Source of the DNA: Akkermansiaceae bacterium | GTDB taxonomy: Bacteria; Verrucomicrobiota; Verrucomicrobiia; Verrucomicrobiales; Akkermansiaceae | NCBI GenBank assembly: GCA_023301765.1 | Contig: JALZUC010000001.1 | Coordinates: 1 to 64,000 of the forward strand | Length of the DNA: 64,000 nt | Direction: 5' to 3' | Shown here: positions 205 to 5,991 of the stretch, piece by piece | Layout of the letters: every line of letters starts with the position of its first letter | Position numbering within the stretch: position 1 is the stretch's first letter | Notes under the pieces: generated by a model | The model's input: the letters and a program-made list of their open reading frames with translations, nothing else | Databases searched by the model: none | Told to the model about the DNA's origin: nothing | Translations under genes and position numbers: made by a program

Positions 205-256
205 TAAAAGTGTAACCTATGTCCTCGGTCAATGTGTTACCTATGTCCCCGGTTCA
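205..256 (-). mobile_element. IS481-type terminal region with paired direct repeats
   Basis: Two near-identical 20-base direct repeats lie just upstream of the transposase start: 210-229 and 233-252. On the minus strand they read ACCG(A/G)GGACATAGGT(T/A)ACAC. Repeated 'GAACCGGGGACATAGGTAACAC' blocks are typical of the left ends of IS481 elements. The outer edge appears to be near 254-256, inside the 3' end of the neighbouring 147-aa gene. Confidence 0.65.
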
Positions 257-684
257 TACCCTGCTGCTGCTGACAATTGGAGACAAAGGGATTCCCAAAC
301 ACTAAAATACTCATAAACAGAACACCTCAATGCATGCTTCCTGATCCCAAGATCATCACTCACTTTTACTATAGTAAGCACCTTCGACTTTCTCCACTTG
401 CTAGAAATCTCAACCCTTGAATCATCTAAGCATGCATAATGACTACCAGAACTCGTGGCTCCTTCCTGTAGCTTTTCCCTTAAGTCCATATACGAGTCGA
501 CTATAAACGTAGAATCATCCTCAACAAAAAACGTGTGGTTTCCATGAGGTAAACCTTCGACCTGGATCTGCTTAAATTGCCTTTCTAGCAACTGCTCACG
601 AAGAGTATCCCCGTCAAACTTCCTGTCGAAACTAGGTAGCCTCAAAAGACCGTCCAGCCGAATTTTTATATTTATCTTTTTCAT
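241..684 (-). CDS. putative cytoplasmic immunity protein, 3' end cut by IS481
   Basis: This 147-aa protein has no signal peptide or membrane segment and no family I recognise. It starts with ATG at 684, three bases after the TAG (687-689) of a toxin-tip-like reading frame, which is the usual layout of a polymorphic-toxin immunity gene. The last residues (GYEPGT) are encoded by the IS481 end (GAACCGGGGACATAG), so the natural C-terminus has been lost and replaced. The function is inferred from position only: it may neutralise the toxin whose fragment lies directly upstream. Whether the truncated form still folds is unknown. Confidence 0.5.
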   Translation of the reverse strand: MKKINIKIRLDGLLRLPSFDRKFDGDTLREQLLERQFKQIQVEGLPHGNHTFFVEDDSTFIVDSYMDLREKLQEGATSSGSHYACLDDSRVEISSKWRKSKVLTIVKVSDDLGIRKHALRCSVYEYFSVWESLCLQLSAAAGYEPGT

Positions 685-686
685 TC

Positions 687-920
687 TAGCATCCAGGAAC
701 AGGAAATGTATGAGCTTTATTGTTCGGTTTAGGTATGGTTATAGCTTTATTAGTAGGCTTAGTCACAGGCTTTCCATTTTCCATTGTTGTGACTTGTCCG
801 TCTCCTGATGGTATTTTAATGGTTTGCGCCTTCCCTTGTGGCTTGGTCATATCTGTTTGAGCTGCTGCTCGCCGAGTTGCATCTTCTGACGTCCATCGGA
901 GTATCCTATTAAGGGTCTGT
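687..920 (-). pseudogene. C-terminal fragment of a polymorphic-toxin tip
   Basis: An open minus-strand frame runs from the edge of the IS4 remnant (about 920) to a TAG at 687-689. It has no suitable start codon; the first ATG in frame would give only the last part. The peptide contains TSEDATRRAAAQTDM, then a low-complexity stretch rich in Lys, Pro, Thr and Asn, and ends HTFPVPGC. It immediately precedes the immunity-like gene at 241-684. I infer an orphan toxin C-terminus whose 5' part was removed when the IS4 element inserted. The assignment rests on context; no toxin motif is visible. Confidence 0.4.
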
Positions 921-922
921 CC

Positions 923-1975
923 CTATATACGTTTATACGAGATAAGGGGCATGCTGTCAAGTTCATCGACGGCAGCACAGTTCAGCTTGACGACACAGAG
1001 CAAAACCAAAAGCTCTACCCCCAGCCGACAAGCCAAAAGCCAGGTTGAGGCTTTCCAATCATGGGCATAATGGGAGTGCTCAACAGTGCACATGGCGGAT
1101 GGGAGGATTTTGCTGTCGGTGCACATACCGCGCATGACGCGCCCATCGCTCACAAGCTTCTAGGCAACTTTGGACAAGGTGATATCCTCTGCGGTGATCG
1201 AGCCTTCTGCACATATGAACTCATAGGAAGCCTCGCTATCCGAGGAGCGCACAGCCTAATGAGATTACACCAAGCACGGCACAAGGCACTAGACTTCAGA
1301 AAGGGAAAGAGAATCGGAAAAAACCAACGGCTCGTCATCTGGAAAAAGCCAAGAGTTCAGCCGAGATCAAGCCCACTGAGTATAGAGGACTGGGCAGCAC
1401 TGGACGAGAATATGGAAATACGCCTCATCAAGTTTTGGTATGAAGATCGAACAGGAAAGAAACGTAGTATGGTGCTAGCCACGACTTTGTTAGACGCTGA
1501 AGAGTATGACTGGTTAGAACTCAGCGAGCTCTACGCTCAGCGCTGGGATATTGAACTACGCCTACGTGATGTCAAAACCACCCTCGGAATGGAACGACTT
1601 CGGGTAAAGACGCCCGAGACCGCACACAAAACCCTAGAGATGACCATTATTGGTTACAATCTGATCAAGGCCACATGTCAGGAAGCTGCGCATGCAAGTG
1701 GACATAACATTAGATTATTCAGTTTCAAGGGAGCCTTAGACACAGTGGTAGCAAGCACATACCGCTACAGAGGCAGGCAAAAGTGTCTGAAATTTATTAG
1801 AGAAATATGGTCGAGTATAATCGAACCCATAGCCGAAAAAGTAGTTAACTCGCGCCCCTATAGACACGAACCGAGAGCTGTAAAACAGCGACCAAAAAGC
1901 TACAGTTATATGACCCGTCCACGTTCAGAATACAGTGAGATTCCGCACCGAGGAAAACCCCGATCATTTGCTTAA
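923..1975 (+). pseudogene. IS4-family transposase, 5'-truncated with an in-frame stop
   Basis: From 1061 an uninterrupted 304-residue frame encodes most of an IS4-type DDE transposase. It shows the second catalytic Asp in GDRAFCTYEL and the Y-(2)-R-(3)-E-(6)-K signature in YAQRWDIELRLRDVK. The homology continues upstream in the same frame: VKFIDGSTVQLDD, which holds the first catalytic Asp, then a TGA at 1046-1048 where relatives have a sense codon (…QKPG-stop-GFPIMGIMG). Upstream of about 923 the homology ends, so roughly the first 130 residues of a normal ~430-residue transposase are missing. The element is therefore inactive. It lies antisense to the surrounding toxin/immunity genes. Confidence 0.85.
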
Positions 1976-2505: not shown

Positions 2506-2946
2506 TTAAATCGATACATCTTTACCTTCAGTAATCATTTTTAGATTATAAATAACGGTAGTCATTTTTTGTTCATAACCATCTAATAGATATTCAAATA
2601 CCACCACGCTATAACCATTTGCATGTTTTAGCAGAATACTAAACACATCCCCTTCTTCATAAAGATCGACTAAATAGTCTCCATGCAACGTACTCACAAT
2701 GAATTCTTCACTGTCATCTACCATTTTATAAAGGTTTTTAACTCCATTCGGAGATCCTCGTAATATATATATATCGCTATTTTTTTTGTAAAATGAAATC
2801 ACCTCAGACTCCTCTAAAGCAGTTTGAAACCGACCATTATGCACCCCATCCCCCCAACTAATATACTGAATACGATAAAACTCAGGTATAGGATTTGCGA
2901 TACAGCATTGAAAAAACAACATTATTAATACGCTCAAATACTTCAT
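2506..2946 (-). CDS. putative exported immunity protein (146 aa)
   Basis: The product starts MKYLSVLIMLFFQCCIANPIPEF, a clear signal peptide with a possible processing site after residue 18; a start nine bases earlier (2955) is also possible. The rest is a small soluble domain of unknown family. The upstream tip frame ends at 2956-2958, so the two genes are virtually contiguous. Export suggests that, if it is an immunity protein, it acts in the periplasm. Its stop codon may be a mutation, because the same frame continues as coding-like sequence with a membrane anchor. Confidence 0.5.
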   Translation of the reverse strand: MKYLSVLIMLFFQCCIANPIPEFYRIQYISWGDGVHNGRFQTALEESEVISFYKKNSDIYILRGSPNGVKNLYKMVDDSEEFIVSTLHGDYLVDLYEEGDVFSILLKHANGYSVVVFEYLLDGYEQKMTTVIYNLKMITEGKDVSI

Positions 2947-2955
2947 AATTACCAT

Positions 2956-3210
2956 TTATTTAATACTAATATCTAAACCGCTAGAACTCGAATACCAATA
3001 TTGATTTTCCTTCCCCCCAAGACTTCCATTAAAGCCTCCTAAACTGTTATTTAAAACCTGCTCTTCTGAAATACCACCCTTTGCCTGATATGGCCCGGAT
3101 CCATATGTAGGATCAAAATAAATATTTCCTAGTGTACTAGATGTGTATTTGACAATACAGTGTCCACCCCAATGTAGGTTGTTATCACGCCTAAGCTTCA
3201 CCAAATTCAC
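2956..3210 (-). CDS. orphan polymorphic-toxin tip, possible cysteine-protease-like fold
   Basis: An 84-residue frame begins at a weak GTG and has no ribosome binding site that I can see. It holds HWGGHCIVKY near residue 14 and IYFDPTYGSGPY near residue 30, a His followed by Asp spacing reminiscent of papain- or transglutaminase-like toxins, but no upstream Cys domain is present. It is followed without a gap by an exported immunity-like gene and is preceded by repeat A, whose end overlaps its first codons. I infer the C-terminal remnant of a larger toxin that has lost its delivery domain. The enzymatic guess is weak. Confidence 0.4.
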   Translation of the reverse strand: MNLVKLRRDNNLHWGGHCIVKYTSSTLGNIYFDPTYGSGPYQAKGGISEEQVLNNSLGGFNGSLGGKENQYWYSSSSGLDISIK

Positions 3211-3372
3211 AATTCACGGACCGGCTCCTTACAGCTCCTTTATCACCTTAAATCACTTATTAAAAAGACAACCCTCAGTCGCTTCATAGAAAAAATGACT
3301 CTTTACTTAAAAGACAGTTGCCGACCCCTCTCTGATCATCAGCTGAAGTCTGTGCCTTTCCTTCCTGTCCCT
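3188..3372 (+). repeat. Repeat A (3188-3228) and repeat C (3334-3372)
   Basis: Repeat A reads CGCCTAAGCTTCACCAAATT and continues CACAATTCACGGACCGGCTCC; it matches 4312-4352 with few changes. Repeat C reads GATCATCAGCTGAAGTCTGT then GCCTTTCCTTCCTGTCCCT; it matches 4357-4395. Here the two are separated by about 105 bases of unique sequence, whereas at 4312-4395 they are adjacent. The region 3229-3333 holds no other feature I can support. Confidence 0.6.
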
Positions 3373-3419: not shown

Positions 3420-3845
3420 CTATTTTTCTTTAACAGGTTCAATAATAGAACTATCCATTAACATAAGTATTTTACCTGATACTCTTTTATACGTTTTTTT
3501 ATCTGTAAATTCAAACCAATAAACCCAACAAATACCATCATCTTGTTTTCCCGTTTCATTATAGCTACTAGGATCAAGCTCTACCTCTTCTAGAAAAAGA
3601 TCAATTCCGGGGTATTTTTTTTCAGCATAATCCCATGCTTTTCTCACAGCCTTATAGAATGGAATCGGTGTTTCACCTTTCATATCCCACTTCGGCAGTT
3701 TTTTCACCTCCGATAATGAGTGTGAATAAACATGCTTTTCCCCCTTAATCAAAGAAGTATAAAAAACAACTTTTTCCTCAGCTTCACAAAACGAAGTCAT
3801 ATGCATCATACAAATCAGACATATCAAGCTAGGTATAATTTTCAT
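3420..3845 (-). CDS. putative exported immunity protein (141 aa)
   Basis: The protein opens with a signal peptide (MKIIPSLICLICMMHMTSFCEAEE), and the cysteine before the mature region could be read as a weak lipobox. The mature part of about 118 residues includes AWDYAEKKYPGIDLFLEEVELDP and a WVYWFEFTD strand, a helix-plus-sheet pattern like PepSY/NTF2-sized secreted domains, but I do not recognise a family. It stands downstream of a broken tip-like fragment (3911-4111) and upstream of a repeat block, matching the layout of the other modules. The role as immunity protein is inferred from that pattern. Confidence 0.5.
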   Translation of the reverse strand: MKIIPSLICLICMMHMTSFCEAEEKVVFYTSLIKGEKHVYSHSLSEVKKLPKWDMKGETPIPFYKAVRKAWDYAEKKYPGIDLFLEEVELDPSSYNETGKQDDGICWVYWFEFTDKKTYKRVSGKILMLMDSSIIEPVKEK

Positions 3846-3910: not shown

Positions 3911-4111
3911 TCAATGCTCCTCACACTCAAGCTGTAAAATACTCACCATACCTACAAATTTAATTGCATAATAGCTGGGGTCATCGGCAAGTTCATATTT
4001 CGTCGTGAAACCATCCATCTGGAGTTCTCCCCCCTGACTTTCAATCAAATCATCTTTTCGACAAACCAACATCATCATTCCTACAGCTTCGATAACAAAT
4101 ATATTCAACAA
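3911..4111 (-). pseudogene. Fragment of a possible toxin tip
   Basis: A 66-residue frame with no credible start region encodes KDDLIESQGGELQMDGFTTKYE and ends LQLECEEH. It has no recognisable domain. Its position between a repeat block (4244-4395) and an exported immunity-like gene (3420-3845) is the same as that of the other tips in the array, which is the only reason for this call. It may be chance open sequence. Confidence 0.25.
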
Positions 4112-4243
4112 TATTTCTGATATCTACAGACTCTTGTAACTACCAAGCCCATTAGAATGCTCCCACAGCTCAAGCATCTTCCCCATTGTAGATATTTTAC
4201 AATGCCAGCTAGTACTACTCGTGAGTAACCAAAGAGGCGGATA

Positions 4244-4395
4244 GGACAACGACGGGGCGAGGATAATTGCCGCCGCGTCAGTGGGACCTATTTACAGGGT
4301 AGCTTTCCCCACGCCTAACATTCATCAAATTCACAATGCACGGACCGCCTCCCTCGGATCATTTACTTAAGTCAGTGCCATTCCTTCCTGACCCT
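4244..4395 (+). repeat. Composite repeat B-A-C
   Basis: Three repeat blocks lie almost end to end. B (4244-4306) includes AATTGCCGCCGCGTCAGTGG and matches 5305-5366. A (4312-4352) matches 3188-3228. C (4357-4395) matches 1962-1988 and 3334-3372. One plus-strand frame stays open through all three, running from IIAAASVGPIYRVAF into the A and C blocks and ending SFT-stop, while the IS4 transposase at 1975 ends SFA-stop at the same position in C. I infer that the block is the worn 3' end of a diverged IS4-like transposase. The flank 4112-4243 shows nothing else. Confidence 0.6.
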
Positions 4396-4415: not shown

Positions 4416-4841
4416 TCACAACTTGTTAAGTATATACTCCAATTCTTTGTCATTACATTTTATTTTCAAAAATGGTGAGGTCGTAGCCGCGCCTTGTAAA
4501 CTCATCATCTTTCCAGAACTATATGAAACCACACCAATAATTCTCCCAGAATTGACATACACCAAGGGCCTGTCATTGATCGCTATTTTGACTTTCAGCT
4601 TACATTGCAAATGCCAAATGCCATCCACCTTGTATATTAGCTTATCAACAATCAAGATATCTCCAAGATCAAGCGCCTTTACCTTAATGTTGTGTAATTT
4701 ACCTTTTTCATCAAAAAATTTTACTTTCTCTCCGCGTTCATCATTCGACGCCACCATTAATTTTCCGCCTAATACCTCTTGGGCATTAGATAAGAAAGAA
4801 GTAATAAATAAGATACTAATAACTAATAATTTTAACATCAT
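4416..4841 (-). CDS. putative exported immunity protein (141 aa)
   Basis: The start ATG (4839-4841) overlaps the TGA of the upstream toxin tip as ATGA, which implies translational coupling. The product has a signal peptide (MMLKLLVISILFITSFLSNAQE) and a mature beta-rich domain of about 120 residues rich in Lys, Val and Gly (for example KVKALDLGDILIVDKLIYKV). No family is recognised. Tight coupling to a tip with an RHS-core relic makes this the best-supported immunity candidate in the array. The signal peptide indicates periplasmic action. A 173-aa frame on the opposite strand is a shadow. Confidence 0.6.
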   Translation of the reverse strand: MMLKLLVISILFITSFLSNAQEVLGGKLMVASNDERGEKVKFFDEKGKLHNIKVKALDLGDILIVDKLIYKVDGIWHLQCKLKVKIAINDRPLVYVNSGRIIGVVSYSSGKMMSLQGAATTSPFLKIKCNDKELEYILNKL

Positions 4842-5239
4842 GGGTTTCTACAAATGAAGTGGCATGTCTCGTAACAAATTACCTTCGCAGCCTCAATAGC
4901 CAAAGCGCCTAATCTACCTAACGCTGTAGCAGCCGCGGCAGCAATGTCACAACCCGTCGTACACTCTGCTATACTGCAATCAATTCTGAAATCAGCATTA
5001 TGAAATGTGACTGTAGTCGTAACTCTGCTTTTGCATCCACAAAAACCAGGATTACTCATTGGCATGGTCAAATTTTCGGGGATATTTTCACAATCTACTC
5101 CGATTCCGGCCCCTCCAACTCCCAAAACATCAACATGATTGATGGCATTATTTCTCACAAAAACGTATATACTTACTAACTCCTCTCGAATACTTTTAAT
5201 TTTTTCATGTCCTGCGTAGACCTCGAGCTTTATTCTCAA
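4838..5239 (-). CDS. orphan Rhs-type toxin C-terminal tip
   Basis: Near residue 20 the frame reads IREELVSIYVFVRNNAINHV then DVLG, a decayed form of the RHS-repeat-core terminus (…GGxNLYxFVxNNPINxVDPLG) that marks the junction between the Rhs shell and its variable toxin. The following ~95 residues are the tip: cysteine-rich (FCGCKS, CSIAECTTGCD, CYETCHFIC) with an Ala-rich helix. The only start is a TTG at 5239 with no binding site, and the frame upstream hits a stop, so the shell is lost. Toxic activity is unknown. The stop overlaps the immunity start. Confidence 0.65.
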   Translation of the reverse strand: MRIKLEVYAGHEKIKSIREELVSIYVFVRNNAINHVDVLGVGGAGIGVDCENIPENLTMPMSNPGFCGCKSRVTTTVTFHNADFRIDCSIAECTTGCDIAAAAATALGRLGALAIEAAKVICYETCHFICRNP

Positions 5240-5304: not shown

Positions 5305-5366
5305 GGACGACGATGGGTGAGGCTAATTGCCACCGCGTCAGCGGGATCTATTTGCAGGCTGGCTTT
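5305..5366 (+). repeat. Repeat B, second copy
   Basis: GGACGACGATGGGTGAGGCT then AATTGCCACCGCGTCAGCGG and further matches B at 4244-4306 over its whole length with about a dozen differences and one indel. It lies just 5' of the RHS tip on the minus strand, in the same position relative to a module as the block at 4244-4395. Confidence 0.6.
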
Positions 5367-5408
5367 TTGTTTACCTCATATATTGTCTGTCCCTCAGTAT
5401 GCACTGCT

Positions 5409-5795
5409 TTATTTAGCAATTTCTATCAATTGTATTTGAACCTTATACGCTTTTAATACCCCTTCCTTATCTTTTATAACTTTTTCGGGAAATCCATCAC
5501 CGTTTTGGTCAAAGACTGTTACTTCAGTATCGCCATCATTCGACATAGTTGTCACAAGGTAGCCTTTTTTAAATTCATTCCTTTTTAAAGAAATGACGTT
5601 CTCATACCCGTTAAAAATATATATACTGGAGTCACCACGGACTGGAATCTCGGAGATTAAGTCAATACTCCCCACAGGCACTCTTGTCCGACCATGAGGG
5701 AGCTTCACTGTTTTCAATTTCACTTGCTGATGGATCGCAGCTAGACAAAAACATGAGAGTGAGAAAATTAAGAATAAGCTGGCTATACGTTTCAT
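5409..5795 (-). CDS. putative exported immunity protein (128 aa)
   Basis: From the internal ATG at 5795 the product starts MKRIASLFLIFSLSCFCLAA, a signal peptide; a start at 5810 would add five residues. The mature domain is small and beta-rich and ends with an acidic motif (FDQNGDGFPEKVI) that resembles a single EF-hand or VCBS-type calcium loop. Size, export and location match the other immunity-like genes, but no tip is left upstream: 5811-5991 has only stop-ridden sequence and then an inverted repeat C. The role is inferred from context. Confidence 0.45.
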   Translation of the reverse strand: MKRIASLFLIFSLSCFCLAAIHQQVKLKTVKLPHGRTRVPVGSIDLISEIPVRGDSSIYIFNGYENVISLKRNEFKKGYLVTTMSNDGDTEVTVFDQNGDGFPEKVIKDKEGVLKAYKVQIQLIEIAK

Positions 5796-5991
5796 ATTTT
5801 TTACTAGCAAGCTTCAGAGTCTAATACTCCGCCGCTTGATGCTATTTATATTACTGGGAGGAATTACAATAGCCCCCTATCGGGTCTATTACTACTAAGA
5901 GTCTTCCCCTTTATACTACTATTATAGAAAAATATTAAAAGATAATCCGGATCTTCAAGACTAGGAGCGTATTTGTTACGGCTCTGTTCCA

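Follow-up and report, generated by a model that had tools for sequence, protein, structure and literature searches.

A probable orphan Rhs toxin–immunity module in a decayed cassette array of an Akkermansiaceae bacterium

Introduction

Poole et al. described orphan modules of the rhs-CT/rhsI and cdiA-CT/cdiI kind that retain little beyond the boundary motif, and in E. coli EC93 such an immunity gene, though orphaned, is both expressed and functional (2011, PMC3150448). For polymorphic toxin systems, Zhang et al. list Sec export among the routes of delivery (2012, PMC3482391).

Here we describe a locus on contig C1 of an Akkermansiaceae draft genome (2.46 Mb, 68 contigs); the 64,000 nucleotides with which this contig begins are called the window. 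We are confident, short of certainty, that the locus is an orphan Rhs-CT/RhsI (toxin–immunity) module lying in a decayed cassette array (Table 1). The arrangement itself is well known, and the novelty is confined to the two amino-acid sequences.

Table 1. Features of the array in window coordinates
Feature	Position	Strand	Basis or remarks
DDE transposase remnant	1061-1975	(+)	N-terminal part missing; Pfam DDE_Tnp_1 matched from position 52
Small exported protein, probable orphan immunity gene	2506..2955	(-)	Directly after 2956..3210 frame; signal peptide
Orphan tip-like frame, 84 aa	2956..3210	(-)	Position between spacer and exported protein
Small exported protein, probable orphan immunity gene	3420..3845	(-)	Signal peptide; decayed frame before it, about 3911-4160
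Intercassette spacer	4156..4395	(-)	Repeat pieces common to 3186-3372, 1953-2000 and contigs C45 and C39
Candidate immunity gene (partner)	4416..4841	(-)	141 aa, Sec signal peptide; ATGA overlap with tip
Orphan Rhs C-terminal frame	4838..5239	(-)	133 aa; starts only TTG, GTG or late ATG
Cys-rich tip, candidate toxin domain	4841..5116	(-)	92 aa, 9 Cys; relatives not found
Relic of Rhs core/tip boundary, VSIYVFVRNNAINHVDVLGV	5117..5176	(-)	Family Rhs-core HMM, 17.5 bits, E 3.1e-4
Spacer repeat upstream of tip	5319..5367	(-)	Same piece behind the small-protein gene at the C39 Rhs end, 90% over 49 nt
Small exported protein, probable immunity gene of preceding decayed cassette	5409..5810	(-)	Signal peptide, position

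A relic of the Rhs core/tip boundary

The window was scanned, as 2136 six-frame chunks, with a hidden Markov model of the Rhs-core end, trained on some 100 Rhs genes from the family to which the window genome belongs. The only significant match was the 20-residue segment VSIYVFVRNNAINHVDVLGV, with the runner-up at E 2.4. With this single outstanding match in a window-wide scan, the shell/toxin boundary that the first-pass annotation had placed in the frame proves to be real, and the fragment thus retains what marks an orphan Rhs-CT module. The model was a second profile, derived from the hits of a first; that smaller profile contained no sequence from the window genome, and with it the tip frame scored higher than each of 5000 shuffled versions of itself and than any other frame in the window (E 0.025). 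The recognisable core comprises only its last 20 or so residues: the GRW-SRDP block is absent upstream of the relic, the model found no further Rhs core in any of the six frames of the window, and comparison with the genome's own Rhs ends at the DNA level gave nothing usable. This shortness of the relic counts against reading the locus as an orphan Rhs-CT/RhsI module.

The frame is bounded by stops at 135 codons, its listed length being counted from the TTG at 5239. As no ATG precedes residue 59, its start is uncertain. At its other end, bases 4841-4838 read ATGA, so that the tip's stop codon overlaps the start of the next gene, just as the first-pass annotation had it, coordinates included. 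A small gene thus follows the tip directly, where an orphan module would carry its rhsI. Shine-Dalgarno sites occur in only 3 of the 37 genes of the window and are uninformative for this pair.

The cysteine-rich tip and its partner

The tip had been described as holding at least nine cysteines in about 95 residues, and our count agrees. Such a content is far above the cysteine frequency of the window (1.3%, P 4e-6) and also exceeds that of tips in the family (2.7%, P 0.001), among which 3 of 96 are equally or more Cys-rich, placing the window tip at the top end without making it unique (compare L085, L091 and L095). The tip at L095 (genome G024, contig C30) carries the motif CCNEHDKCY, has the look of a phospholipase A2 and is followed by a membrane protein. 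A twin-CX3C architecture was also considered as a tip family, being present in 5 of 100 tips against a mean of 1.05 and a maximum of 4 in 200 shuffle runs; we claim no such family because the five tips are dissimilar and one of them is phospholipase A2-like.

Polymorphic tips commonly lack detectable relatives. For the window tip none were found in 58 relatives, 388 genomes of the phylum and 384 of the class (overlapping sets), with peptide seeds in a collection of 84,980 species or in viral contigs, on plasmids, or in PDB, Pfam, NCBIfam and PADLOC. Weak matches at L158, L160, L165, L167, L173, L203 and other loci turned out on inspection to be chance similarities in unrelated frames. Likewise, the partner had no relatives in some 390 phylum genomes, in the 84,980-species collection searched with peptide seeds, on plasmids, or in Pfam, NCBIfam and PADLOC, and its PDB matches did not go beyond chance. 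Because seed-based searches reach close relatives only, distant relatives of either protein may exist. The first-pass annotation had proposed looking for homologous tips at the ends of complete Rhs proteins; the collections searched held none, kinship of that sort being usual but not required for an orphan module. Since neither tip nor partner has a relative on any complete Rhs protein, their toxin and immunity roles are assigned by position. Single-sequence AlphaFold models reached a pLDDT of 37 for the tip and 40 for the partner and were unusable.

The partner begins with a clear signal peptide of the Sec type (MMLKLLVISILFITSFLSNA). The first-pass annotation had linked this export to the tip, arguing that a Cys-rich domain stabilised by disulfides would suit an exported partner. 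Across the family the link finds no support: exported partners are equally frequent after Cys-rich tips (8/13, taking at least 5% Cys as Cys-rich) and after Cys-poor ones (30/58, P 0.56), so cysteine content does not predict an exported partner. A simpler reason would be that the Rhs proteins themselves are exported. Of that earlier reading, then, the core relic, the tip and the coupled exported partner in the position of an immunity gene stand, while the step that led from disulfide-bonded cysteines to an exported partner is not supported.

Rhs tips across the family

To place the pair in context, 97 genomes of the family were surveyed and yielded 100 distinct Rhs tips, which we took together with their next genes. 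The tips vary widely, and not one shows a convincing relationship to the window tip. The next gene lies within 30 nt of the tip's stop in 56 of 71 cases and encodes a protein of median length 149 aa. By a crude signal-peptide rule, 38 of 71 next genes are exported or lipoprotein-like, compared with 30 of 184 other nearby genes (P 9e-9); a looser rule had too high a base rate and was replaced by this one. Exact ATGA overlaps of tip and next gene recur in 8 of 92 cases. Given this spacing, the share of exported products and the recurrent overlaps, a coupled exported partner is typical for Rhs tips of the family. At 12 of 82 loci, a stretch of a few kb contained two or more core-bearing frames. 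The survey is of wider use than the single locus, in that it shows partners to be exported or lipoprotein-like far more often than other genes.

Signal peptides are found at Rhs N-termini in the window's genus and most related genera, and genus g3 mostly lacks them; the rule used scored 10 of 20 N-termini positive, and reading them showed one of these calls to be false and at least one signal peptide to have been missed. Genomes of g3 (G061, G070, G092 and G117) carry many Rhs genes each, up to 16, mostly without a signal peptide. Exported partners accompany 13 of 32 tips in g3 and 34 of 60 in the rest, so that partner location did not differ significantly between the two groups (P 0.19). A type VI sheath gene (VipB/TssC) is absent from the window genome and from 58 of 60 family genomes, the other two having one; with no such gene in the genome, we rejected a T6SS-delivered Rhs effector as a reading of the locus.

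Rhs-core matches in the window genome are confined to two contigs, C45 and C39, close to the start of each, and an RHS repeat lies near the end of C60. Matches at contig ends are what an assembly broken within rhs genes would give; no complete rhs gene is readable in the draft genome, and the Rhs signal peptides were read in related genomes. Both Rhs ends, on C45 and C39, are followed by a small protein with a signal peptide.

A decayed cassette array

The region around the pair is AT-rich, with 37.6% GC against 46.5% for the window. Spacer pieces are common to several cassettes within it (3186-3372, 4310-4395 and 1953-2000), and the window spacer matches C45 at 73% over 166 nt. A repeat at 1962/4357 was considered as the end of an insertion sequence, but with only two copies in the genome this is unsupported.

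Neighbouring cassettes show decay. The frame at 3911-4160 is full of stops, and no recognisable tip precedes the gene at 5409..5810. The product of the latter shows a weak match, below the cut-off (E 0.003), to the NCBIfam model JUQZ_fam_ocin (BLB8/JUQZ-1 family). The frame at 2956-3210 has no homologs in family loci; it contains HWGGHCIVKY...FDPTYGSG and may be a cysteine-protease-like end. Further along, a short Lys/Pro-rich frame at 686-850 (-), MTKPQGKAQTIKIPSG...FPVPGC, lies directly before a 147-aa gene at 241-684 (-) that has neither a signal peptide nor a database match, and the two may be a further decayed cassette.

Origin and possible role of the module

The following history would account for the locus. 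The tip would once have been the end of a full-length Rhs protein, and recombination at the core would have displaced it, leaving the last 20 or so core residues, the tip and the immunity gene. Before its detachment, the tip would have passed through the inner membrane together with the Rhs protein exported by Sec, and the immunity protein would have bound and neutralised it in the periplasm. A need for periplasmic immunity against a tip exported in this way would be the simplest reason for the partner's signal peptide. We consider this displacement the most likely history because it agrees both with the pattern in the family and with known orphan modules (PMC3150448). Today the detached tip is probably not delivered, and the module most likely serves as leftover immunity or as a silent donor cassette, though it may have no present use.

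How much of it still works is a separate matter. Both frames could be open simply because decay is recent, with neither protein now functional, a possibility that we take seriously without favouring it: the adjoining cassettes are visibly decayed, the tip frame has no early ATG, and the array lies near a contig end among transposase relics. Against this, 133 codons of tip and 141 of partner, signal peptide intact, have both stayed open and exactly coupled, and the EC93 case (PMC3150448) demonstrates that an orphaned immunity gene can keep working. It is improbable, on the other hand, that the tip has a structural, adhesive or signalling role at the end of an Rhs shell and that the partner is a chaperone or an unrelated neighbour. 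Short Cys-rich tips without resemblance to toxins do recur in the family (L085, L090, L091) and need not all be toxins, but highly diverse tips tightly trailed by differing small proteins are the signature of polymorphic toxins.

More specifically, the tip, read as a helical hairpin with a CX3C pair on either side, might found a new family of Cys-rich, disulfide-stabilised toxins that act on the inner membrane or within the periplasm and are neutralised by a new family of exported immunity proteins; we regard this proposal as rather unlikely. If the orphan-module reading is right, the locus contributes one untyped toxin–immunity pair, along with an example of how Rhs cassettes turn over in bacteria that lack a type VI secretion system.

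Comparison with known systems

The locus resembles the orphan rhs-CT/rhsI and cdiA-CT/cdiI modules (PMC3150448) in its detached polymorphic tip, which keeps a core boundary motif and has a small gene of the immunity type right behind it, and in its setting in an array that also contains spacers and relics of mobile elements. It differs from them in that the partner is Sec-exported, in the boundary itself, which reads N-x5-D-x-L-G in place of the canonical DPxGL, and in that a full-length rhs gene is not seen beside the array. With the RHS-repeat polymorphic toxin systems of Verrucomicrobia (Zhang et al. 2012, PMC3482391) it shares the Rhs scaffold and its exchangeable C-terminal tips, the window tip and partner standing apart from those systems in matching no Pfam, NCBIfam or PADLOC model.
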